Source of the DNA: Sedimenticola hydrogenitrophicus
Lineage (GTDB): Bacteria; Pseudomonadota; Gammaproteobacteria; Chromatiales; Chromatiaceae
NCBI RefSeq assembly: GCF_029017505.1
Contig: NZ_JAQGEI010000008.1
Span: forward strand, 1 to 64,000
Length of the DNA stretch: 64,000 nucleotides
Reading direction: 5' to 3'
The position numbers and the translations under genes were made by a program. This document shows, piece by piece, positions 40,704 to 59,107 of the stretch (positions are counted from its first letter, which is position 1; each line of letters starts with the position of its first letter). The notes below the pieces were generated by a model that searched no databases, was not told the DNA's origin, and saw nothing but the letters and a program-made list of their open reading frames with translations.

Positions 40704-40720
40704 TGGAATGGTAATTGCAA
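40704..40720 (+). promoter_or_regulatory. Sigma-54 type promoter, rightward
   Basis: TGGAATGGTAATTGCAAT, with GG (40705-40706) and GC (40717-40718) separated by exactly 10 nt. It would start transcription near 40730, about 53 nt before the diheme cytochrome ATG. The -24 box has A instead of the consensus C. Confidence 0.6.
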
Positions 40721-40731
40721 TATCCAGGCCA
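40715..40731 (-). promoter_or_regulatory. Sigma-54 type promoter, leftward, overlapping
   Basis: Read on the minus strand: TGGCCTGGATATTGCAAT, with GG-N10-GC spacing. It uses the same GC (40717-40718) as the rightward site, so both -12 boxes lie in one TTGCAA core. It would drive the NrfJ-like lipoprotein gene at 40653. Confidence 0.55.
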
Positions 40732-40782
40732 GTGATGATTTTAGTTGGCGCCCCAGGCGCGGATCGAGGATCGACAGAAATT

Positions 40783-43372: not shown

Positions 43373-44473
43373 TCATTCCGCCGCATTCCCCAGAAATCCC
43401 TTGTCCGGAGGAAGCGTGGCCGGCCGGTAGATATCCACCTTGCGAAAGAACTGCCCCACCAGATAGACCCGGCCATCCTCGTCGACGTCGATGCCGGCGG
43501 GCAGCATGTATTTGGCCGGTCCTGGGGTGGTGGAGCGGGCGCCGACGAACAGCAGCAGTTGGCCTTGTGGATTGAATATCTGGAAGTTGCCGAACGCGGC
43601 ATCCACCGCATAGACATTACCCTGCTTGTCGATGCTGATGCCCTTGGGGCGGGAGAACTGGCCGAGCCGTGCGCCGGGTTTACCCCAGGCGCGCACGAAT
43701 TCTCCTTCCTGGGTCAACACCTGTATGCGGAAGTTGCCGCCATCGGTGACATAGAGCAGGCCATCCGGGCCGAGTTTCACATCCCGGGGCAGATTGAACT
43801 CTCCCTCGCCCGTTCCGCGCCCGCCGATAGTCCGTACCAGCTCGCCACTGCGGGCATCGAACACCTGAATGACATGTCGCTGGCTCTGCACACCCCCGAC
43901 ATCCACGACAAACAGGCGATTCCCCTCCGGGTCGACATCCACTCCCGCGGGACGCTGCAGCAGCTCCCGATTGCCGATGCTGCGCTGGTAATTACCATCA
44001 CGGTCATAGACCTTGACGATTTTTGCACCGTTGTCCGCGACATAGACGGTACCGGAACGATCGACGGCGATACCCAGGGGTTTGGTGAGATCACCCTCGT
44101 CACCAGCGGTGCCGATATTGAAGGTTTTACCCGTTACAAAATCCATTACAATCACCTGGCGCGTCACGGTGTCGGTGATGAACACCCGGCCCTGGTGGAC
44201 GGCCACGTCGAAGGGTTTGGCAAAACCTTCCCCCTGGTCGCTGCCCTCGCCAGTCAGGAAGGCGCGTAACTTGTCCTCTTTATCGGCCTGCTTGACGGCA
44301 CTGGTACTCAACAGCGTACGTTCATGGTAGAACCGTGCCGGTTCCGGTGGACTGGGGAAGGCCATCGGCGGCTGTTTTTCCGGCGCCTTCTCCGGTAGCG
44401 TCTGGCAGCCGGCAACCAGCAGCATTGCCAGGAGGGTCAGGCTGTGGTTTATCATGTATCGGGTTTTCGACAT
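43373..44473 (-). CDS. Lipoprotein with six-bladed NHL beta-propeller, copy 1
   Basis: 366 aa from the ATG at 44473; ATGs at 44479 and 44488 are also possible. Lipobox LLVAGC, then about six NHL blades from residue 65 (FAKPFDVAVHQGRVFITDTV, LTKPLGIAVDRSGTVYVADN, LQRPAGVDVDPEGNRLFVVD, and so on). A paralog lies at 53779-54852, next to the largest cytochrome gene. NHL propellers are protein-interaction platforms and are often found beside multiheme cytochrome genes. It is divergent from the triheme cytochrome gene, with only 50 bp between. Confidence 0.82.
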   Translation of the reverse strand: MSKTRYMINHSLTLLAMLLVAGCQTLPEKAPEKQPPMAFPSPPEPARFYHERTLLSTSAVKQADKEDKLRAFLTGEGSDQGEGFAKPFDVAVHQGRVFITDTVTRQVIVMDFVTGKTFNIGTAGDEGDLTKPLGIAVDRSGTVYVADNGAKIVKVYDRDGNYQRSIGNRELLQRPAGVDVDPEGNRLFVVDVGGVQSQRHVIQVFDARSGELVRTIGGRGTGEGEFNLPRDVKLGPDGLLYVTDGGNFRIQVLTQEGEFVRAWGKPGARLGQFSRPKGISIDKQGNVYAVDAAFGNFQIFNPQGQLLLFVGARSTTPGPAKYMLPAGIDVDEDGRVYLVGQFFRKVDIYRPATLPPDKGFLGNAAE

Positions 44474-44523
44474 GCGCATGTTCATCATCTGGTTACGAAA
44501 AAATAGCGAGATTTCCAATTTCC

Positions 44524-45525
44524 ATGAATCCGGGTCCACGTAACTACACGGCCACTGTCTCCGCCCTGCTCGGGCTGCTGCTGGCACTCTTTGCCTCCGT
44601 TTCCCTGGCGACCGGGATTACTCCGGATCGCCACCAGGCAGGAAGAGAGATCTACAACTTTCGCTGTTACTTCTGTCATGGCTACTCGGGTGATGCCAAT
44701 ACCCTGGCCACCACTTACCTGCAACCGCCACCGCGTGATTTTACCGCCCTCGCGCCGGGCGATCTGAGCCGGGATCAGATGCTGCAGGCGATCCGCGAAG
44801 GTCGGCCGGGCACGGCGATGAAACCCTTCTCGCGCCTGCTCAGTGAAGCGGAGATGGAACTGGTCGCCGACTTCATTCGCGAGGAATTTATCCTCCAACG
44901 TCTGCCAAACACCCATTACCATTCCCGCGAAAATGGCTGGGCGAATCACCAGCGCTACCAGCCGGCGTTCCCGTTTGCCGATGGCCGGATCCCCCTGGAC
45001 CGCCCCTGGGAACAGCTGACCCCCGGGCAGCGGCAGGGCAAGCGGCTGTTTCTCGGCAGCTGCATCAGTTGTCACGACCGGGCCCGGGTCAGCGACGAAG
45101 GAGAGCCATGGGCGCCTGACGCCGTCTCCTATCCCCGCACCTCATTCGCCACCGGGGATTTTCTGCTGCCTCCGGATGCGCTCACCGGCGCTTCTCCCTT
45201 CGCCCGCCACGATATCGCCCGTTCCCTCGATCTACTTCCCGAGCCCGCCCGCCAGGGCGGCGAACTCTTCCTCGCCAATTGCGCCTTCTGTCACGGCGCG
45301 GACGGATCCGGCCGCAACTGGATCGGGACCTTTCTCGAGCCCCATGCGCGGGATCTGACCGACGACCGCTTCATGGCCGGCATGACCCCGCAGCGCTTGC
45401 GTCAGGTCATTCTGCACGGACTTGAGGGGACCTCGATGCCCGCCTGGCGTTCCGTGCTGAGTGATTCCCAGGTCGAGAGCCTCATACTGTATATCGATCA
45501 GGCGATACATCCGCTGGCTGACTGA
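44524..45525 (+). CDS. Periplasmic triheme cytochrome c (three class I domains)
   Basis: 333 aa with a signal peptide (about 1-29, ending SLATG). Heme motifs CYFCH, CISCH and CAFCH. The first and third domains keep the distal Met signature (GTAMKPF, GTSMPAW) and the PPPRDF motif of the diheme paralog at 40783. The middle one is shorter and may be divergent. The ATG at 44524 is chosen for the signal peptide. Likely a soluble electron shuttle of the locus. Confidence 0.85.
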   Translation: MNPGPRNYTATVSALLGLLLALFASVSLATGITPDRHQAGREIYNFRCYFCHGYSGDANTLATTYLQPPPRDFTALAPGDLSRDQMLQAIREGRPGTAMKPFSRLLSEAEMELVADFIREEFILQRLPNTHYHSRENGWANHQRYQPAFPFADGRIPLDRPWEQLTPGQRQGKRLFLGSCISCHDRARVSDEGEPWAPDAVSYPRTSFATGDFLLPPDALTGASPFARHDIARSLDLLPEPARQGGELFLANCAFCHGADGSGRNWIGTFLEPHARDLTDDRFMAGMTPQRLRQVILHGLEGTSMPAWRSVLSDSQVESLILYIDQAIHPLAD

Positions 45526-45871: not shown

Positions 45872-46693
45872 ATGAAAACAGGGAATTCCTACATGAACAA
45901 GTATATCGTCCTAATCGCGGGCACACTGCTTGCGTACGGCAGCGCCTGGGCCGGGATCAAGGGTAGCCAGCATGACCTTGGCAGCGGCGGTGCCGGCCAG
46001 GGTACCTCGACCGCGACCACAGAAGTCTGCGTCTTCTGCCATACGCCCCACGGGTCCAATACCGGTGTCGCGGCGCCGTTGTGGAACAAGACCTTGCCCA
46101 GCACCACCTACACCCGTTACTCCTCGCTGGGTACCGCCAGCCTGGATGGCTCGGAGGTGACCGTCGGTTCGGTCTCGCTGGCCTGCCTCTCCTGTCATGA
46201 CGGCAGTCAGGCGATGGACGTGGTGCTCAACGGCCCGGGCAGCGGCAACTACAATGCCGCCGGCAGCGAGATCGATGCCGGCGCCATTGGCACCATGGTG
46301 GGCGATCCGATCCCCAAGATCGGCGCCGATCTGCGTAACGACCATCCGATCAGTATTGCCTATGCGGGCGGCGCCTGTACCGGTACCACCGCGGACTGCG
46401 ATCCGGCTTCCGCCAGCAGCGGTGACCCGGACTTCGCGGTGGCGCAGTACGCTTCCATCAATACCCAGGACCAGTGGTGGGTGGACGTCACCAACACCGC
46501 CGTGACCGGCACCGCAAACGTGCGGGAGAAGACCGACATGATCCTCTACACCCGTGACTTCAGCGGTACCAACGGGCCTTCGGTAGAGTGCGCCAGCTGT
46601 CACGATCCGCATGAAGATACCAAGAGACCGGTCAGCTTCCTGCGCATCGCCAACAACAACAGCGACGTCTGCCTCTCCTGTCATATTAAATAG
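45872..46693 (+). CDS. Tetraheme cytochrome c with doubled-CXXCH domain
   Basis: 273 aa with a signal peptide (about 1-27). Four CXXCH motifs: CVFCH, CLSCH, CASCH and CLSCH, with HTPHG and HDPHED distal-ligand patterns of the doubled-CXXCH (cytochrome c3-like) family. The N-terminal half is paralogous to the start of the 11-heme cytochrome at 54849 (TEVCVFCHTPHGS...APLWN...). Preceded by the sigma-54 site and followed by a strong hairpin, so it may be expressed both alone and as the head of the long operon. Confidence 0.85.
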   Translation: MKTGNSYMNKYIVLIAGTLLAYGSAWAGIKGSQHDLGSGGAGQGTSTATTEVCVFCHTPHGSNTGVAAPLWNKTLPSTTYTRYSSLGTASLDGSEVTVGSVSLACLSCHDGSQAMDVVLNGPGSGNYNAAGSEIDAGAIGTMVGDPIPKIGADLRNDHPISIAYAGGACTGTTADCDPASASSGDPDFAVAQYASINTQDQWWVDVTNTAVTGTANVREKTDMILYTRDFSGTNGPSVECASCHDPHEDTKRPVSFLRIANNNSDVCLSCHIK

Positions 46694-46718
46694 AGAGTCG
46701 TACCTTCGCTGTGTTTAT

Positions 46719-46748
46719 GGGGTGCCAGGGAAATAATCCTGGCACCCC
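46719..46748 (+). terminator. Perfect 11-bp hairpin after the tetraheme gene
   Basis: GGGGTGCCAGG pairs exactly with CCTGGCACCCC around an 8-nt loop, followed by AACTTACGTTT. It lies 26 bp after the stop. The downstream T-run is weak, so partial termination is likely, giving more tetraheme message than downstream message. Confidence 0.65.
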
Positions 46749-46832
46749 AACTTACGTTTCGAGATTACAAAACCATTAAGGACGCATGGTAATTGTTGGC
46801 CGGGTGTGGATGCGGTTCCGAGGAAGATTGCT

Positions 46833-47882
46833 ATGCGGAAAATGAGATACAGGATTGCCGGACTCATCGTCTCCTGGGCCCTGTTCTGGGTAATGGCACC
46901 GGCTATTCCAGCCGATGAGGCCGAACCGTTGTTTGCCCGGGTCAACGGCCAACCCATCAGTATGGAAAGCTATGCCCAGGGACTTCGGAATGCGGGGCGC
47001 AACCGCTTCTACCACGGCACCCCTCCCGAGGACGAAGTCAGGCAGTTTCGCTGGCAGGTGGGGCAGGAACTGATCGACACGGAGCTAAAGCTTCAGGAGG
47101 CAGGGCGACTGGGTCTGGTCCCCGATCCGCAGTGGACCGGGCCGGAGTTTGATCGGCTGGTGAAGCGTTTCAGCAAGGACCCCCGCTGGGAGGAGAACCA
47201 GCAGATCGTCAGTGACGATCTGCGGCTGCGGCTGCGGCGCAAGAGCCTCCTGAGTCAACTTGCCCAGCGCTGGAAGGACGCGGTGGTCGCGCCGGATGAT
47301 GCACAGCTGCTCGGTTACTACCGTGCCAATCCCGATAAGTTCACCTCACCGGGTCGTGATCATGTGCAATCGATCCTGCTCAAGGTGGATCCTTCGTCCG
47401 GCCAAGAGGTGTGGCAGCAGACCCGGCTGCTGGCGGAGACGCTGAAACTGCGCCTGGATGAAGGTGGGGATTTTGCCGAGCTGGCCAGGGAGTTTTCCCA
47501 GGACCCGTCGGCGGAGTCGGGTGGCGACATGGGCTACCTGCATCAGGGCATGTTGGGCGAGACGGCGCAGCAGGCGATCGACGCCCTGCAGCCGGGAGAG
47601 CTCACCCCGGTCGTGCAGCTGCTGGAAGGCTATGCGCTGTTCCGCCTGATCGATCGCGAGTTACCCCGGGTCAATCCCCTGGATAGGGTTCGCCAACGGG
47701 CCACCGAACTGTGGCTTCGACAGGCCAGGGAATCGGTTCAGGCCGAGCAGGTCAAGCAGTTGAGAGAGCATGCACGGATCGAAATCCTGGACCCGCAATA
47801 CCGTGCGCTGGAGCAGGAACTGGAACAGGGACAGAAACTGGCCGAGGTCGAACCCGGTCAAGGCCTGAACTCGGCGAACTGA
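46833..47882 (+). CDS. Periplasmic parvulin-type peptidyl-prolyl isomerase (SurA/PpiC-like)
   Basis: 349 aa with a signal/anchor (about 1-26). An N-terminal SurA-like chaperone region is followed by a parvulin domain at about 168-270 (VQSILLKVDP, DFAELAREFSQDPSAESGGDMGYL, PGELTPVV). It should help the outer-membrane barrel encoded 20 bp downstream to fold, or fold the cytochromes. AGGAAG precedes the ATG at 46833. PPIase genes next to barrel genes are a feature of several porin-cytochrome loci. Confidence 0.85.
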   Translation: MRKMRYRIAGLIVSWALFWVMAPAIPADEAEPLFARVNGQPISMESYAQGLRNAGRNRFYHGTPPEDEVRQFRWQVGQELIDTELKLQEAGRLGLVPDPQWTGPEFDRLVKRFSKDPRWEENQQIVSDDLRLRLRRKSLLSQLAQRWKDAVVAPDDAQLLGYYRANPDKFTSPGRDHVQSILLKVDPSSGQEVWQQTRLLAETLKLRLDEGGDFAELAREFSQDPSAESGGDMGYLHQGMLGETAQQAIDALQPGELTPVVQLLEGYALFRLIDRELPRVNPLDRVRQRATELWLRQARESVQAEQVKQLREHARIEILDPQYRALEQELEQGQKLAEVEPGQGLNSAN

Positions 47883-47902
47883 CTGGGGGCCGGTGCGGTT
47901 CG

Positions 47903-49627
47903 GTGGCGCAGTCGACGGCTCCCTATGCGGTATTGATCGCCTGCTGCTTCAGCCTGTCAATGGGGCTCAATGCTGCCGAATCAATACTGCCGCCGATTGA
48001 CTATTCCGGACTTCTGCGTAGTACCTACCGGTTGAACCATCCATCAGACGGAAACAACAGCAGTCAAATGACCAATACCGCGGAGATCACAGCCAACAGT
48101 TATATCTGGCGTCCCTGGCTGGCCAACTGGAACGGGCGGCTGGCCGTGTCGCGGGCCAGCAGTGAGAGCGACGACCTGGAACAGACCGGTAGCGTATTTT
48201 CCGGCATGGGGCAGCTCAACCTGTTTCCCCGTAGCCGTTTCCCGCTACAGGCCTATGCCGATGTGACCGACAGCCGTATCGACAGTTCAGGCTTGAGTAT
48301 CGAATCAAGCGGCAGCCGCAACACCCGGCTGGGACTGTTTCAGAGTTATCGCCCGGTGGCAGGCAACCAGCGCTATACCGCCCGGGTCGAACGCAATGTT
48401 CAGGAACAGTTGTCGGACGGCCAGAGCAGCACCCGGGACTATATGCAGGCCGACATGATCACCCGGGGCAAGCAGCATGACTTTACGGCCAACATGTTGT
48501 GGTTGGATTTCCAGCAGGCCAATCCTGACAGCCAGCAGTCCAGTCTGCTGTTGAGTGGTACCCACCGCTACCATCCGCAAGAGCAGTTGTCGATTGACAG
48601 CAATGCCAGCTTCAGTCTGACCGATCAGCAATCCGCCTCCTCCGCGGCGAGCACCAACACGGAATTCCAGGCCAATAGCCACCTGGTGTGGCGCGATCTC
48701 AATCGCCCACTGACGGCGCGCGCGCGGGCCAACCTGCAGTTGCGTCAGGATGGCACCGGATCCGCGGCCAGCGAGAGCCAGGAAGCCAGCCTCAGTGGTG
48801 GCGTTGAGTACCGATTCACCGATGCATTGCGGCTCAATGCCGATGCCGGGGCGACCGTGCGTAACAGCGACAACGCGGTGAGCAGCTTTCAGACGGCATC
48901 CCTGAGCTATACGCCGGATGCGCGTCAGCTACTGGGGTTTACCTACAACTGGTCGGCCAGCGGGGCGGTACGAAACGAATTCCAGACCGATGGCAGCGGC
49001 GGGCAGGGGGTCAGTTCCGCATTGTCCCACCAGATAGGTCGTTCACTGGCGCTTGGATTTGCTGACTGGATGCTCTCCATCAATGCCAGCCAGGGGGTGA
49101 CCGGTGACTTACGTTCACCCGAGGGTAGCCTGATGACCTTGACCCATGCCGGGTCGGCCGGTCTGACCCGTGCCGGGGCGGGCAACAGCTCCAGCTTGCG
49201 ACTGTCGGCGACGGACAGCTTGATACGGGGTGAAACGGATACCCATATCCAGTTGCTGAACCTGGGTGGAGGGCACAATCAGTCACTCTCGCGTAATTCC
49301 GGGTGGAGCGCCGATTTCAATATCGGCACCTCATCGGTTACCAGCAGCGGTGAACTCAGCCAGAACAGTTTTTCCAGCGCCAATGCAAGCTATTTTCACC
49401 GGCGTTTTCTGGACTATCGGAACCTGCGTTTTCAGTCCAATCTGGAACTGCGCTCCGAGAGCGAGCAGCTATTCAACTTTTTCATGGACGCCAACAGATT
49501 GCACTGGCGCAACGAATTCAATTACAGCGTCGGCCGTCTGGATTTGCGACTAACCACAAATGTCCATCAGCGTGCCGATGGTGAACAAGACAAAAGTATT
49601 TTTCTCAGTACCAGCCGTTCCTTCTGA
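47903..49627 (+). CDS. Outer-membrane beta-barrel protein (porin-like, about 570 aa)
   Basis: 574 aa from a GTG at 47903, giving a signal peptide MAQSTAPYAVLIACCFSL... ending near LNAAES. The mature part is rich in alternating polar and hydrophobic short strands (ARVERNVQEQL, ANMLWLDFQQA, SLLLSGTHRY, LNLGGGHNQSL) with Ser/Asn/Gln-rich loops. It ends in Phe (STSRSF), the outer-membrane insertion signal. No MtrB-type N-terminal CXXC is visible, so it is at best functionally similar to MtrB/PioB/OmbB. Inferred to be the barrel of a trans-outer-membrane cytochrome conduit. Strand count needs a predictor. Confidence 0.75.
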   Translation: MAQSTAPYAVLIACCFSLSMGLNAAESILPPIDYSGLLRSTYRLNHPSDGNNSSQMTNTAEITANSYIWRPWLANWNGRLAVSRASSESDDLEQTGSVFSGMGQLNLFPRSRFPLQAYADVTDSRIDSSGLSIESSGSRNTRLGLFQSYRPVAGNQRYTARVERNVQEQLSDGQSSTRDYMQADMITRGKQHDFTANMLWLDFQQANPDSQQSSLLLSGTHRYHPQEQLSIDSNASFSLTDQQSASSAASTNTEFQANSHLVWRDLNRPLTARARANLQLRQDGTGSAASESQEASLSGGVEYRFTDALRLNADAGATVRNSDNAVSSFQTASLSYTPDARQLLGFTYNWSASGAVRNEFQTDGSGGQGVSSALSHQIGRSLALGFADWMLSINASQGVTGDLRSPEGSLMTLTHAGSAGLTRAGAGNSSSLRLSATDSLIRGETDTHIQLLNLGGGHNQSLSRNSGWSADFNIGTSSVTSSGELSQNSFSSANASYFHRRFLDYRNLRFQSNLELRSESEQLFNFFMDANRLHWRNEFNYSVGRLDLRLTTNVHQRADGEQDKSIFLSTSRSF

Positions 49628-49665
49628 GCCTTTGCGGACGGTGTTTTAGCTAACAGGAGCAATCG

Positions 49666-50088
49666 ATGATCAATAGCAGAAAGGGGCGTTGTCCGGGGTG
49701 GATACCAGGCTTGGCGGTTATGCTGGTGATTCTTCTGCTGGGTCCCGCCCCGGCGACGGCGGAGTATGGCGATGTCGTCATCAACAACTATTCCGACCAG
49801 GCGGGTATGCGGCCGGCGATCTTTCCGCATTGGTTTCATCGCATCCGTTTCCGTTGCAAGGTGTGCCACGCCGACCTGGGGTTCCAGTTCAAGGCGGGCG
49901 GCAATGACATCACCATGTTGAAGATTATCGATGGTGAGTTTTGTGGCGCCTGCCACAACGGCGACATCGCCTGGTCGGTGGAGAACTGTAATCTGTGCCA
50001 CTCCGGCAAGCCGAATACCTCCACGCAAGTCCATCAGAGCACCCTGCAGAAACTGCTGGCTCCGGCAAAACCGAAGGCTAAGGAGTAA
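49666..50088 (+). CDS. Triheme cytochrome c, 'EYGDV' type, copy 1
   Basis: 140 aa with a signal peptide (about 1-32). Three CXXCH motifs (CKVCH, CGACH, CNLCH) in about 60 residues, plus separate ligand histidines (FPHWFHRIRFR), as in small c7-like cytochromes. A paralog of the same design lies at 53387-53785. CAGGAGC lies 5 nt before the ATG. The stop overlaps the next ATG (TAATG). Confidence 0.88.
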   Translation: MINSRKGRCPGWIPGLAVMLVILLLGPAPATAEYGDVVINNYSDQAGMRPAIFPHWFHRIRFRCKVCHADLGFQFKAGGNDITMLKIIDGEFCGACHNGDIAWSVENCNLCHSGKPNTSTQVHQSTLQKLLAPAKPKAKE

Positions 50089-51110
50089 TGGCGATGACTG
50101 AATACATGAGGAATGTACTCTGGGTCGCCCTGCTCGGTCTGGCGGGATTCCAGGCTTCGGCTGCTGAAGAGAAAGGCAAACAGATCGTCGATACGGTCTG
50201 TGCCGCATGCCATGTCGCGGGTGTGCTGAATGCGCCGAAACTGGGCGACATACAGGACTGGATGCCGCGCCTGCAGCAGGGTGAAGAGGCCCTGATCAAA
50301 CATGCCGATGAGGGTTTCAACGCGATGCCGCCGAAAGGTGGGAACGCGTCACTCTCCACGGAGGATATCAAGCTGGCGGTGCACCACATGATGGGGCTGG
50401 TGGGCGAGAGTATCGTCAGCAGCAAATCCGCAACACCAACACCCCCCGGCAAGCCCGCGGCAGCGGAGAAGGCGCCCGGCAAACCTGCGCCGGCTAGTGA
50501 TAAGGTTGCCGCCGGGAAGAGCCCCGTGGACAGTGCACGCAGCGTGGTGGTTGAAAAGCCGGCGGCCAGGCCGGCACCCAAGCCGGCGGTTATCGCCAAG
50601 GCCAGTCCCGAATCGCGCCGGGTAAACTCCTTCAACCGGCTGCTGCGGCCCGCCGAGCAGCGCAACCTGCCACCGGCGAAAGATGGTATTCACGATGCGG
50701 AAAATGATGGTACCGAGGTTTTGCAGCACCCCAAAGAGGCCTTTTCCAGCCTCGACAAGGCCAATTCCGGCAACCGGGTGGACTGGGTTAAATCCCTTGG
50801 GGGTGACAAGATCACACCAAGGTATGACCTGCTTGATCCGGACAAGCGGCCCATGGTGCTGGATCTGAATATCGTGCGCGAGGTGAAGGGCTCGATGCCC
50901 GATGTGGTCTACCCCCACAAGCAGCACACCGAGTGGCTGGACTGCTCCAACTGCCACCCGGCCATTTTTATTCCCAAGAAGGGTGCGAACAACATCAGCA
51001 TGGCATCCATTCTGATGGGTGAGCAGTGTGGTGTCTGCCATGGCAAGGTGGCGTTTCCGGTAGCGGAGTGCAGAAAATGCCATTCCAAGAACAAACCGAT
51101 GAAAAAATAA
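50088..51110 (+). CDS. Tetraheme cytochrome: c5-like domain fused to a triheme c7-like domain
   Basis: 340 aa with a signal peptide (about 1-26). Residues about 28-105 form a monoheme class I domain (CAACH; distal Met in FNAMPPKGG). A Pro/Ala/Lys-rich flexible linker follows (about 110-180). The C-terminal 140 residues hold CSNCH, CGVCH and CRKCH and are paralogous to the protein at 52833-53390 (shared DG-HDxxN and PHKxHTEWLDCSNCH). The long tether suggests a mobile electron arm between complexes. Confidence 0.86.
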   Translation: MAMTEYMRNVLWVALLGLAGFQASAAEEKGKQIVDTVCAACHVAGVLNAPKLGDIQDWMPRLQQGEEALIKHADEGFNAMPPKGGNASLSTEDIKLAVHHMMGLVGESIVSSKSATPTPPGKPAAAEKAPGKPAPASDKVAAGKSPVDSARSVVVEKPAARPAPKPAVIAKASPESRRVNSFNRLLRPAEQRNLPPAKDGIHDAENDGTEVLQHPKEAFSSLDKANSGNRVDWVKSLGGDKITPRYDLLDPDKRPMVLDLNIVREVKGSMPDVVYPHKQHTEWLDCSNCHPAIFIPKKGANNISMASILMGEQCGVCHGKVAFPVAECRKCHSKNKPMKK

Positions 51111-51916
51111 GGGGTTCGTTGCTGCCGGTGCTGCTGTTGGTGATGAGCATCGGCAGCGCTGGCCCGGCGAATGCCGCAATGCTGGAGCAGAAGCTGCACC
51201 TGGTGGAGCGGCTGCATCAGCGGTTGCAACTCGATCCGAAGAACGATCCCTACCGGGCTTCCCTGGCAGAAGCCCGGGCCTTGATCGAGCAGGGCCAGTC
51301 GGAGCAGGCCAAGGCGCGGTTGGATGAGATGATTCGGCAACTGGCCAGGACCTACCGGACGCGCGGTAGCGGAGACCAGGCTGAGCGGCAACGGACGAAA
51401 TACCAGCGGCGGCGGGTTGAGGTTCGGTCACTGCTCTCGTCCCTGGAACAGTGGATAGCGCAACAGGGGGCCGCACAGGTCCAGCTGGATGTGGCGCGGC
51501 TACACGCAACGCTGGCAACCGCCGACAAGGCGGCCGGGACTGACGGGATCGCCAGGGCGATCGCGCTGATGGATGTGACCTATCAGGAACTGGTGACGGA
51601 ACTGACCCGCTTGCGGGACAAGGAGACGGTCAACTACCGACTGGAGTTCAAGGGCCCGGAGGACGAGTATCGTTACGAGGTCAGGCGCTATCAGACCTAC
51701 CGGCTATTGTTGCGCATGAAACTGGATGGGCAGGTCTTCGGTGATGCGCGAATGGGTCGGGTTCAGGCGTTGCGGCGTCAGGCGCTGGAACTCAACAGTG
51801 AAGCTGAAAAACAGGCGCGGAGCGGAGAGTTTAACGCGGCAATCGCTACCCAGTCCGGGGCGACCGAGACATTGATCAAGGCGTTGGCGGTGGTTGGCGT
51901 CTATCTTTCCAAATAA
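51077..51916 (+). CDS. Helical periplasmic protein of unknown function, copy 1
   Basis: 279 aa from the ATG at 51077, overlapping the previous gene by 34 bp. A TTG at 51119, with AAGGGG before it, would give a more regular signal peptide. After a signal (ending PANA) the protein is predicted almost entirely helical, with charged heptad-like stretches. It is paralogous to the next gene: both end with a DEYxYE-R---T---L core and a C-terminal IR/LAV-GVYxxK/G tail. No family recognised; it has no heme motif and no cysteine in the mature part. Confidence 0.7.
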   Translation: MPFQEQTDEKIRGSLLPVLLLVMSIGSAGPANAAMLEQKLHLVERLHQRLQLDPKNDPYRASLAEARALIEQGQSEQAKARLDEMIRQLARTYRTRGSGDQAERQRTKYQRRRVEVRSLLSSLEQWIAQQGAAQVQLDVARLHATLATADKAAGTDGIARAIALMDVTYQELVTELTRLRDKETVNYRLEFKGPEDEYRYEVRRYQTYRLLLRMKLDGQVFGDARMGRVQALRRQALELNSEAEKQARSGEFNAAIATQSGATETLIKALAVVGVYLSK

Positions 51917-51935
51917 GGTTTTACGGGAGTGGATT

Positions 51936-52823
51936 ATGAAGAGACAGAGTCTGATAGCGGGAGTATTGGCAGCGCTCCTGATCCTGCCGCTGGTGTGGGC
52001 GGAGGAGACTAAGAAACCGCCGCAACCGACGGTCAGCGAAGAGTCTGTCAGCAGCCGCCTGGAGAATCTGCAGCGCCTGGTGCGCACCTCCTCCGGTGCC
52101 CGGCGTGTGGCAGCCAGTGACAATAGCAAGGCACAGGGGTACCAGAAACAGGCGGATCAGAAGCTGATCGAGGCGGAAAAACTCTTGCGCAAGGGCGATT
52201 ACGCAGCGGCAAACCGACAGCTGGGCGAGGCCACGGCCCTGATGTTTGGTGCCATCCGCGAGGTGGGGGCTGACAAGGAGATCGATCAGAAAAAGCGCAA
52301 GGACTTTGATGCCAAGGCCGCCAGTGTGGATGTGCTGCTGAAGGCGCTGAAGCGGATCGCCGCTGAAAAAGGGGCGGGCAGTGAAAGCAGCCAGACAATC
52401 GCCAGCGTGGAGCAGGGTCTGCAGCAGGCCCAGCAGTTGGCATCCGAGGGAAAACTGGATGCTGCGCGCCAGCAGCTGGATGATGTCTACTACCAGTCCA
52501 AGGTGGCGATCGAAGGGCTGCGGCGGGGTGATACCCTGGTTCGGTCGCTTAACTTCGCAACCAAGAAGGATGAGTACACCTACGAACTGGATCGCAACGA
52601 TACCCACAAGATGCTGGTATCGGTGTTGCTGGAAGAGAAGATGAAGACCGCCAACACGCGGAAAATGGTGGACGACTTCCTGGCCAAGGCGGCGGAGTTT
52701 CGTGCCCAGGCCGAGCGGAAGGCGGCGGGTGGCGATTATAAACAGGCAGTCGAGTTGCTTGAGTCGTCGACCAAAGAGCTGGTGCGTGCGATTCGCGGAG
52801 CCGGCGTCTATATCCCGGGATAA
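51936..52823 (+). CDS. Helical periplasmic protein of unknown function, copy 2
   Basis: 295 aa from ATG 51936 (GGGAG upstream), signal peptide about 1-22 (LPLVWAEE). Predicted long helices with Lys/Glu/Ala-rich repeats containing (L)xAxRQLxEA and LxAARQQLDD elements. The last about 95 residues (KKDEYTYELDRNDTHKML... to GAGVYIPG) align with the preceding gene. Such a pair could form a heterodimeric periplasmic rod or scaffold for the cytochromes around it; this is inference. Confidence 0.7.
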   Translation: MKRQSLIAGVLAALLILPLVWAEETKKPPQPTVSEESVSSRLENLQRLVRTSSGARRVAASDNSKAQGYQKQADQKLIEAEKLLRKGDYAAANRQLGEATALMFGAIREVGADKEIDQKKRKDFDAKAASVDVLLKALKRIAAEKGAGSESSQTIASVEQGLQQAQQLASEGKLDAARQQLDDVYYQSKVAIEGLRRGDTLVRSLNFATKKDEYTYELDRNDTHKMLVSVLLEEKMKTANTRKMVDDFLAKAAEFRAQAERKAAGGDYKQAVELLESSTKELVRAIRGAGVYIPG

Positions 52824-52832
52824 GGGGGCAAA

Positions 52833-53390
52833 ATGGGACAGCACGGAAAAGCGCGATGGTATTCACTGGCACTGTTTTTTACCGGGCTGTGGTTGCCCGG
52901 CCCGCTGTTCGCGGAGTGGACCCCGTTGGCCGAGGACGGGTTGCATGATCCGGATAATCCGGCCCTTGAAGTGATGCAGAATCCGGGCGATGCCCTCTCC
53001 CGGTTGCCGCGGGATGACGCGGGGGATGTCGGCAACAAGGTGCGTTGGGTGCAGGCGCTGGAGCAGGGTTACATCGAACCGCGCACCAACATCTTCCCGG
53101 AGACCAAGATCGAGGTGCTGGATCTTGATATCATCATGAAACACACCGGCAGTACCGCTTATGTGCGCTTTCCCCACAAGCCCCATACCGAGTGGCTCGA
53201 CTGCAGCAATTGTCACGATAAGATCTTCAAGATGAAGGCGGGTGAGACCCCGCTCAGTATGCTTGCTATCCTTTCCGGCGAGTATTGCGGCCGCTGCCAC
53301 GGCGCGGTGGCCTTCCCCCTGGTCCTGTGCAACCGCTGTCACAGCGTGCCACCGGACACATTGGAGAATAAGGTTAATCAGCGACAATGA
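52833..53390 (+). CDS. Triheme cytochrome c, 'DGLHDP' type
   Basis: 185 aa with a signal peptide (about 1-27). CSNCH, CGRCH and CNRCH plus histidines in FPHKPHTEWLD. It is the stand-alone version of the C-terminal triheme domain of the gene at 50088. AAGGGGG before the ATG. It overlaps the following gene by 4 bp (ATGA). Confidence 0.88.
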   Translation: MGQHGKARWYSLALFFTGLWLPGPLFAEWTPLAEDGLHDPDNPALEVMQNPGDALSRLPRDDAGDVGNKVRWVQALEQGYIEPRTNIFPETKIEVLDLDIIMKHTGSTAYVRFPHKPHTEWLDCSNCHDKIFKMKAGETPLSMLAILSGEYCGRCHGAVAFPLVLCNRCHSVPPDTLENKVNQRQ

Positions 53391-53785
53391 GCGAGCGTCA
53401 CGCCATACCCAAGCGAATCCGCGCCACCGCGCTTGCCATGCTGCTGCTGGGGTTTTTCGCATTGCCGGTTTTTGCCGAGTATGGCGATGTCATCCTCAAC
53501 CACCGTGCGGAACAAGAGGGGATGCGGCCGGTGATTTATCCCCACTGGTTTCACCGCATCCGTTTCCGCTGTAAGGTCTGTCATAACGAACTGGGGTTTG
53601 AAATGCGCGCCGGGGCCAACGACATCACCATGGCGGATATTATCGATGGCAAGTTTTGCGGCATGTGCCACAACGGGCAGGTGGCCTGGTCGGTCGAAAA
53701 CTGCGACATCTGCCATTCCGGGCGCAAGGGGCTCAAGACCCGCATCATGGGTGGTCATGAGACGGGAGGTCCGGGACGATGGTGA
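53387..53785 (+). CDS. Triheme cytochrome c, 'EYGDV' type, copy 2
   Basis: 132 aa, signal peptide about 1-30 (ending PVFA). CKVCH, CGMCH and CDICH, with the same PHWFHRIRFRCKVCH block as the copy at 49666 (about 60% identical by eye). It overlaps the next gene by 7 bp. Confidence 0.88.
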   Translation: MSERHAIPKRIRATALAMLLLGFFALPVFAEYGDVILNHRAEQEGMRPVIYPHWFHRIRFRCKVCHNELGFEMRAGANDITMADIIDGKFCGMCHNGQVAWSVENCDICHSGRKGLKTRIMGGHETGGPGRW

Positions 53786-54852
53786 AGCGGCTGGGGGGCC
53801 ACGGGTTGCTGCTGCTCGGGTTTGCGCTGCTGGCGGGCTGCGCCAGTGTAGACGAGCCGCGCCACTATGACCCGTTCGCCGGGGTGAGCCGGGATCAGTG
53901 GCCGGTCTGGCCGAGTGCACCGGAGGTGCCGCGGTATATATTTTCCGGACAATTGAGCGGTGAAGAGAACTTTGTCACCGAGCGGCCGGAGGGGCAGGGC
54001 AGGGGGCTGTTCGCCCTGCTGGTGGGGCTGGGTCAGGAGGAGCGGATCCCCCGGGTACTGCAGCGACCCCAGGGCGGGCTGGTGGATTCGGCCGGGCGTA
54101 TTCTGGTCACCGACGTGAGTCGCCAGGCGGTCTATGTGTTTGACCCGCTCCAGGCCCGGCTTCTGGTGTGGGAGATGGCGACAGACCGGCAGCGTTTTGT
54201 TGCGCCCATCGGTATTGTCGAAAGCGCAACCGGGGACTATCTGGTCACCGATGCGGAACTTGGATTGGTGGCCCGGCTGGACCGAAACGGTGAGCCGCTG
54301 CGCCCATTGGGTTCCGGCATATTAACGCGGCCGACAGGCATCGCCCGCGATCCGCGGAGCGGTGAGCTGTTTATCGCCGACACCCGGGATGGTTCCATCA
54401 AGGTGTTTGATGCCGAGGGTTTGCTGTTGCGGCGCATCGGCGCGCCGGGGGATGGTCCGGGTGAGCTGAATGCACCCACCTACATTGCCTGGCATGAAGG
54501 GCGGCTCTATGTTACCGATACCCTCAACTCACGCATCCAGATCTTTGATCGCCAGGGCAGACTGCGGGGTCGGTTCGGCGAACGCGGCCTGTATATCGGC
54601 AACTTCTCGCGTCCCAAGGGGATAACCGTTGATTTAAACGGTTTTATCTACGTGGTGGAGTCCTACTTCGATCACTTGCTGATCTTTGATCCCCAGGGGC
54701 AATTCCTGATGGCGATCGGTGGCAGCGGCCAGCAACCGGGACAATTTTTTCTGCCGGCCGGGGTGTGGCATGACAATCAAGATCAGATCTATGTGGCCGA
54801 TATGTTCAACGGTCGGGTCGCAATCTTCCAGTTTCTCGGAGGAACGCCGTGA
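53779..54852 (+). CDS. Lipoprotein with NHL beta-propeller, copy 2
   Basis: 357 aa, lipobox ALLAGC. About six NHL blades start near residue 90 (LQRPQGGLVDSAGRILVTDV, LTRPTGIARDPRSGELFIAD, FSRPKGITVDLNGFIYVVES and others). It is a paralog of the lipoprotein at 43373. It lies between the small cytochromes and the 11-heme cytochrome, and its stop overlaps that gene's GTG. A docking platform for cytochromes is a reasonable guess. Confidence 0.85.
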   Translation: MVKRLGGHGLLLLGFALLAGCASVDEPRHYDPFAGVSRDQWPVWPSAPEVPRYIFSGQLSGEENFVTERPEGQGRGLFALLVGLGQEERIPRVLQRPQGGLVDSAGRILVTDVSRQAVYVFDPLQARLLVWEMATDRQRFVAPIGIVESATGDYLVTDAELGLVARLDRNGEPLRPLGSGILTRPTGIARDPRSGELFIADTRDGSIKVFDAEGLLLRRIGAPGDGPGELNAPTYIAWHEGRLYVTDTLNSRIQIFDRQGRLRGRFGERGLYIGNFSRPKGITVDLNGFIYVVESYFDHLLIFDPQGQFLMAIGGSGQQPGQFFLPAGVWHDNQDQIYVADMFNGRVAIFQFLGGTP

Positions 54853-57254
54853 ACGGGCATAGGTTAATGCTGGGGTTGCTGTTGCTGGGGCTGTTTTCAA
54901 CGGCCCAGGCGGCCCGGGTGTCGGACATCCGCAGCACCAAGCACAATCTGTCGGTGACCGGTCCCGGCACGGTGAAGGCGGTCAGTGAGACCCAGGTCTG
55001 TGTGTTTTGTCATACACCCCACGGCTCTACCGCCTCGGTCGGTGCACCGCTGTGGAATCGCGAGCTTTCCGGCGCCACCTATACCCCCTACACCTCGAAT
55101 TCGATCAATGCCACCGATATCGCCGCTGAGCCGGGCGGCAGTTCCAAGCTCTGCCTCTCCTGCCACGACGGGACCCTGGCGATCGGCTCGGTCAATGTCT
55201 CCAGCGGCCAGACCGGGGTGAGTATCGATATGAGCGGGACCGGCGCCGCGGGTACCATGGCAACCGGGCAGGGCGAGAGCAGCGGCTTCACCCGCAGGCT
55301 CGGTGTCGACCTGACCAACGATCACCCGATCTCGTTCACCTATAACAGCACCCTGGCCCTGGCGGATGGTGAACTGCGCGACCCCGGCAGCGCCCCCCAT
55401 ATCGGCACCCGGGCTCCCGGAATCAGGCATCAGGTCCCGCTGGAGGACGGCAAGGTCGAGTGCGTGAGCTGTCACGATCCCCATATCCGGGACAGTGATC
55501 CGAGCAAAAATATCAAGTTCCTGCGCCTCAACCGCTTTCAAAGCAGCACGCCCGGCGGCGGGAGTTTCAACGAGAGTGGCGATATCGTCTGTCTCGCCTG
55601 TCATGACAAACTGGGTCAGGCCTGGGCGGATTCGGCGCACGCCAATCCGTCGGTAGCGGATGAAACCTACAAAAGCGCTTCAGCGGCCCTGCGCGAATTT
55701 CCCGACGGCACCCGGGTGTGGGAGGCGGCCTGCCTCAACTGCCACGATACCCACACGGTGCAGGGCTCCCGTCGCCTGCTGCGCGAGGGAACCGATGCCG
55801 CCGGTGGACCCACCACCCCGCGACTGGGTGGCAGCGCCGCCATCGAAAGCACCTGCTACCAGTGCCACAGCAATGCGGCGGAGAGCATCCTCTCCACGGT
55901 GACCGATGTGCCGGATATCAAGACCGACTTCCAGCTCCCCCGCCGCATGCCCATCAGCAGCAATGATCAGCCGGCGGGCGCGGAGCAACACAATATCAAT
56001 GATGCGGATTTTATCGAGACCCAGGATAACCTCGGTAGAAATCAGACCACCAACAACCGCCATGCCGAGTGCACCGACTGCCATAATCCCCACCGGCTGA
56101 TGAAAAACCGGCTGTTCAACGGCTCCGGCAGCTCCGCGGATTCGACCCACGATCCGGACAGCCCCTCCAACATCGCCTCGGGGGCGTTGCGCGGCACCTG
56201 GGGCGTGGAGCCGGTCTACAGCTCCACCAGCTTTCAGGACAAGCCGTCCGGCTACACCGTGAAGAAAGGGGATGGCGGCAGCGGCGCCAGCACCGCCGTG
56301 ACCAGCGCCCACCTGACCCGCGAGTACCAGATCTGTCTCAAGTGTCACTCGGACTACGGCTACCAGGATGACAATGTCTACCCGGTGGGGACCCGCCCCG
56401 ACCTGGGAGACTCGGGAGGAGGCACCCCCGCGGGGACCAACGGCATGACCCAATACACCAACCAGGCCAAGGAGTTCCAGGCCCCGTTCAGTCACCAGGG
56501 TGAGGGGAGCGCCGCCAATACCGGCGCCGGCAGCGGTTATGCCACCAATAACCACCGCTCCTGGCACCCGGTGATGGATAGCACCGGCCGTACCGCCACG
56601 GTGCGCGCTATGAACGCCAACGCCTTCCTGCTGCCCTGGCGCAACAACATCGGCAACCAGACCATGTACTGTACCGACTGTCACGGCTCGGCCACCGCCA
56701 ACGCCACCCGGGTGCCGACCGGCAGCAACCCCTGGGGACCCCACGGCTCCAGCAAGAATTTCATCCTCAAGGGCGACTGGGATAGCAACACTGGGTCGGG
56801 CCAGTCCGATGACCTCTGCTTCAAGTGCCACGACTACAACACCTATCCGGCGGATGGCGGCAGTCGTACCGGGTTCTACAGTTCCGACCGGGGCGATCTG
56901 CACTCCTATCACCGCAAAAAGATTGGCGCCATGAAGTGCAGCTGGTGTCATGTGGCGGTGCCCCATGGCTGGAAGAACAAGGCGCTGCTGGTCAATCTGA
57001 ACGATGTCGGGCCGGAGGCGGGCAAGGCGGCCGGCGGCGAGGAGATCTGCACCGGCAGCGGCGGCTGGGGCAGCACCAACGGGGGCTGCAGCAAGGACAA
57101 CGGCTATACCAATGCCCCCTACTACCTGAACGCCTTCCTCAAGGTGATCAACTTCCGCCCCAGCGGGCAGTGGCGGGAGAACGACTGCGGCTCCAAATCG
57201 GGTAACACCGGCCGGGACTGGATGCGCGACGAGGCCTGCGAGAGTCCCAACTGA
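54849..57254 (+). CDS. Eleven-heme cytochrome c
   Basis: 801 aa from a GTG overlapping the NHL stop, with a signal peptide (about 1-21, ending AQAA). Eleven CXXCH motifs spread along the chain: CVFCH, CLSCH, CVSCH, CLACH, CLNCH, CYQCH, CTDCH, CLKCH, CTDCH, CFKCH, CSWCH. No lipobox is seen, so it is soluble or secreted through the barrel system. The N-terminal 100 residues are paralogous to the tetraheme protein at 45872. Size and heme count fit the wire-forming or surface-exposed cytochrome of an electron conduit. Confidence 0.88.
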   Translation: MNGHRLMLGLLLLGLFSTAQAARVSDIRSTKHNLSVTGPGTVKAVSETQVCVFCHTPHGSTASVGAPLWNRELSGATYTPYTSNSINATDIAAEPGGSSKLCLSCHDGTLAIGSVNVSSGQTGVSIDMSGTGAAGTMATGQGESSGFTRRLGVDLTNDHPISFTYNSTLALADGELRDPGSAPHIGTRAPGIRHQVPLEDGKVECVSCHDPHIRDSDPSKNIKFLRLNRFQSSTPGGGSFNESGDIVCLACHDKLGQAWADSAHANPSVADETYKSASAALREFPDGTRVWEAACLNCHDTHTVQGSRRLLREGTDAAGGPTTPRLGGSAAIESTCYQCHSNAAESILSTVTDVPDIKTDFQLPRRMPISSNDQPAGAEQHNINDADFIETQDNLGRNQTTNNRHAECTDCHNPHRLMKNRLFNGSGSSADSTHDPDSPSNIASGALRGTWGVEPVYSSTSFQDKPSGYTVKKGDGGSGASTAVTSAHLTREYQICLKCHSDYGYQDDNVYPVGTRPDLGDSGGGTPAGTNGMTQYTNQAKEFQAPFSHQGEGSAANTGAGSGYATNNHRSWHPVMDSTGRTATVRAMNANAFLLPWRNNIGNQTMYCTDCHGSATANATRVPTGSNPWGPHGSSKNFILKGDWDSNTGSGQSDDLCFKCHDYNTYPADGGSRTGFYSSDRGDLHSYHRKKIGAMKCSWCHVAVPHGWKNKALLVNLNDVGPEAGKAAGGEEICTGSGGWGSTNGGCSKDNGYTNAPYYLNAFLKVINFRPSGQWRENDCGSKSGNTGRDWMRDEACESPN

Positions 57255-57261: not shown

Positions 57262-58296
57262 ATGGCGACGATTGAACAACAGCGAGTGGGCAGTAATGGG
57301 GCGCCGGTCTGGCAGCTTCTGGTCTGGCTCGGCTCGCTGAAGTTCACCCTGGTGGCACTGCTGCTGCTGTTGGCGGTGGTGGTGCGCGCCCTCACCCTGG
57401 CGGACGGTTTTACCTGGTGGGTGGCGCCGCCCCTGGGTGTATTGGCCCTCAATCTGCTGGCCGCCATCCTGGTCAACCCGCTGTTTCGCCGGCAGTTGCC
57501 GCTGCTGCTGTTCCATCTTTCCCTGCTGGCACTCATCGTGCTGGTGGGTGTGGGGCGGATGATCTATCTCAAGGGTTGGGCCGAGGTATCGGAAGGGGCG
57601 GCCTTTGACGGGCAACTGGTGAAATACGAGGCCGGGCCCTGGCATAGCTGGGCGTTGGACCGGGTCCGTTTCGTCAATGAACGGTTTACCATCAACTATG
57701 CGCCGGGGCCGCGCCGCACCACCACCCTGAACCGGGTCCGGCTGTTTGATGAGGCGGGCGGGTCACGGGTCCAGGTGATCGGCGACGACCGCCCGCTGAT
57801 CATGCGGGGTTACCGTTTTTATACCACCTTCAACAAGGGGTATGCCCCGGTGTTCCAGTGGCGGCCGGACGCGGCGTCCAGCCCGGTAACGGGTGATGTG
57901 CGGTTGCCGCCCTTCCCGGGCGAGGCGCTACGGCAGCATACCAGCTGGAACCTGCCGGGGCTGGCCGAGCCTGTTTGGGTGCAACTGGAGTTCGATGAGG
58001 CGATCCTGGCCGAAGAGCGGGCGTCGGTATTTCGACCACCGGCGCGACACCACCTGATTCTGCGCTCGGGTGAGCGGCGTTTTGAGATGAAGCCCGGAGA
58101 TCAGGTGCGCCTGGGTGAGGCGGGGTTGCTCAGTTATCAGGGGCTGCGCACCTGGATGGGCTACAACGTGGCCTACGACTGGACCCAGCCCTGGCTGGTG
58201 GCGGCGGTGCTGCTGGCCGTGTGCTCCCTGGCTTGGCACATGTGGCGCAAATACCGCCAGCGCAGTTGGCTGAGCAGTGCGGATAACCGAGGGTAA
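57262..58296 (+). CDS. ccsB: Cytochrome c synthesis protein ResB/CcsB (System II)
   Basis: 344 aa with three N-terminal helices (about 20-40, 55-75, 78-98), a large periplasmic domain (100-310) and a last helix (about 315-332). This is the ResB layout. With CcsA it forms the System II synthase that moves heme out and attaches it to CXXCH. It lies 7 bp after the 11-heme gene and 1 bp before ccsA. Gammaproteobacteria usually use System I (Ccm), so a System II set inside the cytochrome operon suggests dedicated maturation. Confidence 0.82.
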   Translation: MATIEQQRVGSNGAPVWQLLVWLGSLKFTLVALLLLLAVVVRALTLADGFTWWVAPPLGVLALNLLAAILVNPLFRRQLPLLLFHLSLLALIVLVGVGRMIYLKGWAEVSEGAAFDGQLVKYEAGPWHSWALDRVRFVNERFTINYAPGPRRTTTLNRVRLFDEAGGSRVQVIGDDRPLIMRGYRFYTTFNKGYAPVFQWRPDAASSPVTGDVRLPPFPGEALRQHTSWNLPGLAEPVWVQLEFDEAILAEERASVFRPPARHHLILRSGERRFEMKPGDQVRLGEAGLLSYQGLRTWMGYNVAYDWTQPWLVAAVLLAVCSLAWHMWRKYRQRSWLSSADNRG

Positions 58297-58297
58297 T

Positions 58298-59107
58298 ATG
58301 GAACAGGAACAGCTGATACTTTGGATTGCACTGGTCGCCTATGTCGGGGCCGGCTGCGTTGCGATCTTCGCCCAGGTGATGAAGCGGCGCCCGGAGCGGA
58401 GCGTTCTGGCATTGCTGATACTCGGGCTGCTGCTGCATACCCTGGCACTGGCATTGCGCTGGGAGCGACTGGGTCACGGCCCCTTTGTCACCATGTACGA
58501 AATCCTCTCCAGCAACATCTGGAGCCTGGCCCTGATCTACACCCTGGCCAGTCTGTGGATTCGGCAGATCCGTCCTGCCGCGGCGCTGGTGATGCCGGTA
58601 CTGTTTCTGATGATGGGCTGGATGATGATGACCAATCCGGGCGGGGGGTTGCTGCCGTCGACCTACAATACCGTCTGGCTCTATATCCACATCGGCTTCG
58701 GCAAGATCTTTTTCGGCAGTGTGCTGGTGGCCCTGGGTCTGGCCGGGGTGATCCTGAGCCGCGCCCTGGCGGGGAGTACCCGGTTTGCCCGCATGCCGGA
58801 CAATGTCAGCCTGGAGGAGTTGGCCTACCGCTTCCTGATGCTGGGTCTCATTTTCGATACCCTGATGCTGATGGCCGGCGCCATCTGGGCTCGCGATGCC
58901 TGGGGTCGCTACTGGAGTTGGGCCCCGCTGGAGAGCTGGTCGCTGATGACCTGGATCTTTCTCGCCCTGGCCATCCACCTGCGGCTAACCCTGAAGCCGC
59001 GGCATACCGTCTCGGCACTGCTGGTGGTCGGCGTGTTTGCACTGGGGTTTCTCACCTTTTTCGGTATTCCCTTTATCACCCAGGCGCCGCATAAGGGGAT
59101 GGTCTGA
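58298..59107 (+). CDS. ccsA: Cytochrome c synthesis / heme handling protein CcsA (ResC)
   Basis: 269 aa with about eight helices. The tryptophan-rich motif is present but altered: RYWSWAPLESWSLMTW, where the standard form is WGWDPKE. External histidines lie in YIHIGFGKIFFG and LAIHLRLTLKP. GGTAAT precedes the ATG at 58298. The changed D-P-K residues of the WWD loop are a notable divergence but the fold is clear. Confidence 0.82.
   Translation: MEQEQLILWIALVAYVGAGCVAIFAQVMKRRPERSVLALLILGLLLHTLALALRWERLGHGPFVTMYEILSSNIWSLALIYTLASLWIRQIRPAAALVMPVLFLMMGWMMMTNPGGGLLPSTYNTVWLYIHIGFGKIFFGSVLVALGLAGVILSRALAGSTRFARMPDNVSLEELAYRFLMLGLIFDTLMLMAGAIWARDAWGRYWSWAPLESWSLMTWIFLALAIHLRLTLKPRHTVSALLVVGVFALGFLTFFGIPFITQAPHKGMV

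Follow-up and report, generated by a model that had tools for sequence, protein, structure and literature searches.

Within a stretch of 64,000 nucleotides (nt) of Sedimenticola hydrogenitrophicus DNA (GCF_029017505.1, contig NZ_JAQGEI010000008.1, positions 1 to 64,000 of the forward strand; hereafter the window), we found a complete gene cluster for the undecaheme electron transfer (Uet) complex in a variant layout. We think it probable that this cluster encodes a porin-cytochrome conduit across the outer membrane and that it lies on an island of about 42 kb. Uet has been named in print as a complex of cathode-oxidising Tenderiales and some Gallionella (PMC10734462, PMC12575090; all papers are cited here from excerpts). 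What is new is that a further lineage carries Uet, and that its cytochromes UetA and UetJ, judged by sequence, are related to OmcE, making a joint between nanowire and conduit a concrete hypothesis. The features of the cluster are as follows.

45893..46693, + strand: uetA, exported tetraheme cytochrome, OmcE-like, four CXXCH motifs; alternative start GTG 45836
46718..46749, + strand: 13-bp GC-rich hairpin between uetA and uetB, terminator- or attenuator-like
46833..47882, + strand: uetB, parvulin-type peptidyl-prolyl isomerase (PPIase); PF00639, E 1.4e-16
47903..49627, + strand: uetC, 574-amino acid (aa) candidate outer-membrane beta-barrel, 28 predicted strands, ends in Phe
49666..50088, + strand: uetD, triheme c7-type cytochrome; TIGR04257, 63.3 bits (cut-off 40)
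50088..51110, + strand: uetE, monoheme cytochrome c domain fused to a triheme c7 domain (1+3 hemes); PF13442 and TIGR04257
51107..51916, + strand: uetF1, exported helical protein, UetF paralogue; UetF profile E 2.6e-32; start uncertain, either GTG 51026 or a non-standard codon near 51107
51936..52823, + strand: uetF2, exported helical protein, UetF paralogue; UetF profile E 4.1e-45
52833..53390, + strand: uetG1, triheme c7-type cytochrome; TIGR04257, 63.1 bits
53387..53785, + strand: uetG2, further triheme c7-type cytochrome; TIGR04257, 69.6 bits
53779..54852, + strand: uetH/I, NHL beta-propeller lipoprotein; PF01436, E 3.3e-20; lipobox by pattern
54849..57254, + strand: uetJ, 801-aa undecaheme cytochrome, 11 CXXCH motifs; OmcE-like head and seven more hemes
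57262..58296, + strand: ResB-like cytochrome c maturation protein (System II); PF05140, E 2.3e-9
58277..59107, + strand: CcsA/CcsB-like cytochrome c maturation protein (System II); TIGR03144, E 5.8e-35, under its cut-off

The published list of Uet proteins comprises the tetraheme UetA, the PPIase UetB, the barrel UetC, the trihemes UetDEG, the NHL proteins UetHI and the undecaheme UetJ (PMC10734462), the last of which is also described in PMC13386937. We assigned the genes of the window one by one from the descriptions in this list. Like the clusters of Tenderiales and Gallionella, the window has the tetraheme A, PPIase B, barrel C, trihemes D, E and G, helical F, NHL and undecaheme J in the same order; it differs in having two UetF paralogues, a fourth triheme (G2), a UetE with a fused monoheme domain, and one NHL gene in the operon with another upstream on the opposite strand. 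A wholly new system was considered and rejected because Uet is already in print. In Candidatus Tenderia growing on a biocathode, the trihemes Tel_16515, Tel_16520 and Tel_16530 are among the most highly expressed genes and are seemingly cotranscribed with the TPR gene Tel_16525, while the undecaheme Tel_16545 groups with the trihemes in expression (PMC5371394). The excerpted text of that paper does not use the name Uet, and we infer from the locus numbering that Tel_16515-16545 are Uet genes.

The preliminary description of this DNA had delimited a transcription unit at 46833-57254, read it as a porin-cytochrome conduit and not recognised it as a named system. All the genes that it listed are present on the + strand (the isomerase, the 574-aa protein with a terminal Phe, four small cytochromes, the helical pair, the NHL protein and the 11-heme cytochrome), and the conduit is still the best-supported reading, given the 28-strand barrel model, the top TM-score (template modelling score) of MtrB among the 50 matches listed, and the joint conservation of barrel and cytochromes. 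The lack of a name no longer holds, as the cluster matches Uet as published in the excerpts of PMC10734462 and PMC12575090. The genes enclosed by its boundaries are real, and what those boundaries miss is uetA upstream and ResB/CcsA downstream (57262-59107). It had also reported overlaps of 4-8 bp. The tight spacing that this implied is there, but the spacings run from a 139-nt gap to a 20-nt overlap: A-B 139, B-C 20, C-D 38, D-E -1, F1-F2 19, F2-G1 9, G1-G2 -4, G2-NHL -7, NHL-J -4, J-ResB 7 and ResB-CcsA -20 nt (minus, overlap). The helical proteins that it described as a pair are indeed present; hhalign shows them to be homologues (probability 99.9), and they are tandem UetF paralogues. F1 and F2 each align to the last ~220-270 positions of the long UetF profile built from the class loci, and TPR_19 appears in F1 only, under its cut-off. 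Weak likeness to SurA was seen in the N-terminal part of UetB, where SurA_N models fell just under the cut-off. The four TIGR04257 proteins over cut-off in the cluster are UetD, UetE, UetG1 and UetG2, and Pfam and NCBIfam searches of the operon's proteins recognised no catalytic subunit. Downstream, a 442-aa hydrophobic protein (59107-60435) overlaps ccsA by 1 nt and resembles oxidase subunit I by eye; it has no Pfam or NCBIfam match, and weak matches to it occur in just 4 of 80 relative loci.

UetC was modelled with AlphaFold2 from 19 UetC sequences that are 20-25% identical to that of the window. The resulting model (predicted local distance difference test score, pLDDT, 89.2; predicted TM-score, pTM, 0.68) has 28 long strands, as counted on the model, and is a barrel and not a soluble protein. 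When this model was searched with Foldseek, MtrB (6r2q_B) gave the highest TM-score among the 50 matches listed (0.49/0.45; rank 4, E 9.6e-9), and LptD chains reached up to 0.37 in the same 50. The absence of an MtrB-like CXXC, as first described, was borne out, since UetC has only two Cys, which are adjacent (residues 14-15). The search of the barrel against family models that had been proposed alongside gave no match: with E up to 1 allowed, none of the 19 UetC proteins matched an MtrB/PioB model of Pfam or NCBIfam. Membership of UetC in the MtrB/PioB families was rejected on this result. The sole PDB sequence match of UetC, a kinase (E 1.4), was taken as chance. The terminal Phe is present in the window's UetC and is not a fixed feature, occurring in only 33 of 63 complete relatives. 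By shape UetC is like a conduit barrel, and it lies outside the MtrB/PioB families as these are modelled. The cluster shares with MtrCAB, PioAB and MtoAB a predicted very large outer-membrane barrel encoded with multiheme cytochromes; in contrast to them, it has c7 trihemes and an 11-heme protein, and no decaheme of the DmsE/MtrA type over cut-off.

Sequence comparison shows homology to OmcE both for UetA and for the N-terminal portion of UetJ. UetA matched PDB 7tfs (E 5e-25) in two stretches that jointly span all four hemes, and PDB 9yuq (E 1.8e-26; 16 chains, 'Putative multiheme cytochrome c'). No paper that mentions 9yuq was found among those listed. The entry 7TFS shows the OmcE filament of Geobacter sulfurreducens (PMC12954529), where the adjacent subunit supplies a His ligand to a heme (PMC12954529, PMC9473688). 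Residues 6-217 of UetJ also matched 7tfs (E 8.4e-25), covering the first three UetJ hemes, and the fourth (residue 248) corresponds to the fourth heme of OmcE by position only. We then counted conserved His in alignment sets picked for exactly 4 (UetA) or 11 (UetJ) CXXCH motifs. Eight His columns are kept in 57 of 57 UetA proteins adjoining UetB, and the four aligned His outside CXXCH, which are candidate heme ligands, are kept in all of these and in 59 of 59 UetJ proteins. Since UetJ has at least 15 invariant non-CXXCH His for 11 hemes, counting does not tell which UetJ heme may take a ligand from a neighbour. In 27 UetA-like proteins that do not adjoin UetB, the seven other His columns are kept in 27 of 27 and the CHxxH column is not kept. 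A second UetA-like tetraheme was seen upstream of uetA in several loci (L049, L061, L066, L068 and others). In comparison to the OmcE filament, UetA thus matches over four hemes and four further His, which the UetJ head shares; different are the far greater length of UetJ (11 hemes), the barrel and trihemes encoded alongside, and the filament itself, which for UetA is putative. Among the papers listed, PMC12575090 alone contains both Tenderia and OmcE, the latter in a reference title, and PMC12203936 alone contains both OmcE and undecaheme. A link between Uet and OmcE was not found in the excerpts examined, and it may stand in the mSphere 2022 naming paper.

The pairing of A with J recurs in a second, divergent setting, since a sister cluster shares an OmcE-like tetraheme and a shorter 11-heme J. 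It was seen in four loci (L135 5464-13780, L136 6694-13730, L137 6569-13528 and L138 6771-13716) and encodes an OmcE-like tetraheme of 219-235 aa, an NHL protein, a protein of 632-717 aa, an NHL protein and an 11-heme protein of 571-597 aa. In L135 two trihemes come after the tetraheme, upstream of which stands the first NHL gene; in L136 and L138 an octaheme and a heptaheme protein come after the cluster. The 632-717 aa proteins had no Pfam match in the two that were scanned, and aligned with the UetC profile at probability 94.6 (E 7e-8, 301 columns); they are candidates for a distant relative of the UetC barrel.

The cluster is more than a chance grouping, because the same genes recur in the same order in many genomes; these neighbours, which the preliminary description had proposed to inspect, define no soluble enzyme. 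At class level, UetJ was matched in 52 of 369 genomes, the window's own included (E 1e-15 or better; shorter relatives are counted too), and the near-full-length matches are 54-66% identical. Twenty-one class loci were fetched, 20 through a UetJ match and one through a UetC match. In two of them (L028 and L030) J is present and A to I are absent; the order A-B-C-D-E-F-G-H-I-J-ResB-CcsA is seen in most of the remaining 19, some being cut by contig or region ends or missing one call. Two J genes each are present in L033 and L041.

A second sample was formed by the best 80 of 484 relatives found with a UetD profile, ranked by likeness to UetD, in named genomes; these loci extend 10 kb from uetD, and genes further out are beyond view. 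The relatives belong to Rhodocyclaceae, Aromatoleum, Magnetococcales, Rubrivivax, many Gammaproteobacteria and others; neither the Candidatus Tenderia genome nor any Geobacter genome is among these best 80. Duplicates between the named and class sets are likely (L026/L052, L027/L047, L032/L099), so that the counts are of loci and not of independent lineages. A complete uetC adjoins uetD in 63 of the 80. Selecting for UetD together with a complete 11-heme UetJ in the locus left 46, which hold A in 45, B in 45, a complete C adjoining D in 43, ResB in 39 and CcsA in 36, with UetE and at least one UetG in all 46. The window's layout of two F, two G and one NHL is found in 6 of these 46; others have two F, two G and two NHL (11), one F, two G and two NHL (20), one F, two G and one NHL (6), or one F, one G and two NHL (3), divergent UetF copies possibly being missed in these counts. 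Operons with one NHL gene thus occur in 12 of the 46 relatives, and the extra monoheme domain of UetE (4 hemes) in 28. The one-piece UetF of the class loci has 442-546 aa, and many named loci have a single, short F, often of some 300-400 aa. A split Uet cluster was observed in Aromatoleum and Azoarcus loci (L050, L053, L054 and L056), in which an NHL gene adjoins ResB, D-E-F lie farther on and UetJ matches are elsewhere. We rejected the idea that the Aromatoleum clusters are without A and J, as UetJ matches occur in all 10 genomes searched (only partial in G408 and G409).

Conservation extends to the gap between uetA and uetB. The region 45500-63000 has 14 terminator-like sites, of which the hairpin at 46718-46749 is the strongest; overall, such sites occur there at chance number (14 vs. 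12.5 from shuffles). A promoter scan found none, with 4.6 expected. Among 66 adjacent A-B pairs from the window and the 80 loci, 47 have a gap of at least 60 nt (the 19 shorter gaps were excluded), and stems were counted in the first 200 nt of each gap, the edges of which depend on machine-chosen starts. A stem of 9 bp or more is present in 32 of the 47 A-B gaps, as against 37 of 470 dinucleotide-shuffled gaps, and 23 of the 32 stems have a T-rich tail. Such stems were found in 5 of 19 B-C gaps (shuffles, 18 of 190) and 1 of 12 C-D gaps (shuffles, 5 of 120), and in 6 of 19 and 2 of 12 when up to 400 nt were included. The difference between A-B and the B-C and C-D gaps together has a Fisher p of 2.7e-5, for gaps that come from related genomes and are not independent events. 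The recurring hairpin fits, and does not prove, production of uetA in excess.

The cluster sits on what looks like an acquired island. The siblings G001 and G003 both lack, at this site, the ~42 kb block with the Uet cluster: their match to the window stops near 39,606 and is picked up again near 81,491-81,572 of the contig to which the window belongs (92-96% and 78-85% identity), and one 379-nt piece of 76% identity maps inside the block. Of the 9 genomes of the genus, all have the LptG-like gene that lies beside the block, and only that of the window has the histidine kinase of the island (E 1e-50 or better). Among 57 family genomes, a full-length UetJ match occurs only in the window's own, and six others have matches of at best 5e-65 and 41% identity; a UetC search matched 0 of 33 other family genomes, a result of little weight given how variable this protein is. 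The island edges (600 bp each) share no direct or inverted word of 11 nt or more, where shuffles reach 10-12, and no tRNA gene was found in the 95.8 kb of contig scanned. Base composition was rejected as an island marker (GC 0.58-0.62 inside vs. 0.61 before).

Three genes upstream of uetA form a wider module with the cluster.

40708..41619, + strand: diheme class-I cytochrome c, two CXXCH motifs
43373..44587, - strand: second NHL beta-propeller lipoprotein; PF01436, E 5.9e-26
44335..45525, + strand: triheme class-I cytochrome c; PF13442, E 3.6e-28; start uncertain, its open reading frame overlapping the NHL gene on the - strand

The second NHL gene has a tblastn match in 69 of 80 loci, which may include matches to other NHL genes, and each of the class-I cytochromes is matched in 43 of 80, with cross-matching possible. 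Between them, an ethylbenzene-dehydrogenase-like heme domain fused to cytochrome c (PF09459) is encoded at 41667-43376 on the - strand, with no match in the 80 loci. A histidine kinase, a response regulator (of the NtrC kind by eye) and two propeller proteins were observed beside the cluster, at 61596-63869 and at L154 7873-12180; matches to the response regulator occur in 10 of 80 loci and are strongest in Motiliproteus and Thalassotalea. By inspection the island further carries propeller proteins, hemerythrin-like genes and a seven-heme protein. The names LptG, hemerythrin and response regulator come from inspection of the sequence and not from a family search. The host genome has the RuBisCO large chain, CcoN of a cbb3 oxidase and two matches to the dsrA family over cut-off (G000:C17:72604-73803 and G000:C8:126612-127817), a gene set that fits a sulfur-linked chemoautotroph.

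Taken as a conduit, the complex might work as follows. ResB and CcsA would attach heme in the periplasm and UetB would act as a chaperone for the barrel, the cytochromes or both. UetC would form a very wide barrel, presumably in the outer membrane. The trihemes UetD, E, G1 and G2, held in line by the helical UetF1 and F2, would ferry electrons through the periplasm, and UetJ, threading UetC, would connect them to the outside, where its OmcE-like head may meet the OmcE-like UetA at the surface; the NHL proteins may have a part as well. Electron flow is most likely inward (uptake), the direction suggested by analogy with the Tenderiales and by the RuBisCO, cbb3 oxidase and dsrA of the host. A further step, which we offer tentatively and as less likely than the conduit itself, is that UetA polymerises as an OmcE-type nanowire and UetJ serves as an adaptor, its head capping or seeding the filament and its other hemes running into the 28-strand UetC; the sister cluster repeats this pairing.

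Several observations weigh against the conduit. Siderophore receptors lead the Foldseek search by E-value, and a TM-score of 0.49 is likeness at the level of fold only. No MtrB/PioB model recognises UetC, and a lipobox pattern is also flagged in its signal region. The AlphaFold model of UetJ is poor (pLDDT 50) and unsuitable for a fold search. The window's second NHL gene stands outside the operon. In Candidatus Tenderia the undecaheme and trihemes are without significant change with electrode potential, according to the excerpt of PMC5371394, and no experiment on transport by any Uet protein was found in the excerpts of the literature examined.

The same proteins could be arranged otherwise. 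One possibility is mainly a machine for nanowire export and assembly, like the osc operon beside omcS in Geobacter, where the prolyl isomerase is OscH and the propeller OscD; it would have UetB fold the cargo, UetC serve as its secretion pore and the NHL propellers shape the filament; UetA, perhaps with UetJ, would polymerise outside, as a wire fed by the trihemes and not by a cytochrome fixed in UetC. The homology of UetA to OmcE, the recurrence of PPIase, barrel and propellers with UetA, and the hairpin after uetA, which suggests separate and higher expression, all speak for such a machine, as do the folding, secretion and morphology roles given in a summary of osc (PMC13194489). The osc operon and the OetABI conduits of syntrophic sulfate reducers (PMC13194489, PMC10553843) likewise encode a barrel together with filament-type or surface cytochromes, the filament-type cytochrome of the window being OmcE-like and not OmcS-like, in a comparison made by description and not by protein homology. 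However, UetE and UetG in 46 of 46 loci, along with a UetJ that stays 54-66% identical, amount to more electron carriers than pure export needs, and we regard export as unlikely.

Alternatively, the conduit may be run outward, discharging electrons to minerals, humics or partners. The trihemes are of the c7 type (TIGR04257), which in Geobacter are periplasmic shuttles, and the relatives include Aromatoleum, Dechloromonas and other taxa that we do not know as cathode oxidisers. Conduits may indeed run both ways, as is said of Mto/Mtr (PMC10734462). The published Uet hosts, on the other hand, are hosts of electron uptake or iron oxidation in the excerpts of PMC12575090, PMC10734462 and PMC13386937, and S. 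hydrogenitrophicus has RuBisCO and a cbb3 oxidase, which leaves outward use possible but doubtful. It is highly improbable that the cytochromes are parts of a soluble respiratory enzyme in the periplasm and that the barrel is unrelated: the class-I cytochrome c domain of UetE and the class-I cytochromes next door would suit such an enzyme, but a complete uetC adjoins uetD in most loci, UetC models as a barrel and no catalytic subunit was recognised in the operon.

Whether cytochrome nanowires carry physiological current is disputed (PMC11077965, PMC11936953). Many Pseudomonadota have a set of neighbouring genes for a predicted barrel, putatively periplasmic trihemes, an OmcE-like cytochrome and a larger cytochrome whose head resembles OmcE. 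We know of no settled answer to how cytochrome nanowires connect to the cell. The carriers include apparent isolates (Dechloromonas, as well as Aromatoleum, Thalassotalea and Motiliproteus, in which the cluster is split), which makes the joint between wire and membrane testable by genetics and cryo-electron microscopy in culturable hosts. If our reading is true, a nanowire would be wired directly into an outer-membrane conduit, suggesting how such wires plug into the cell.

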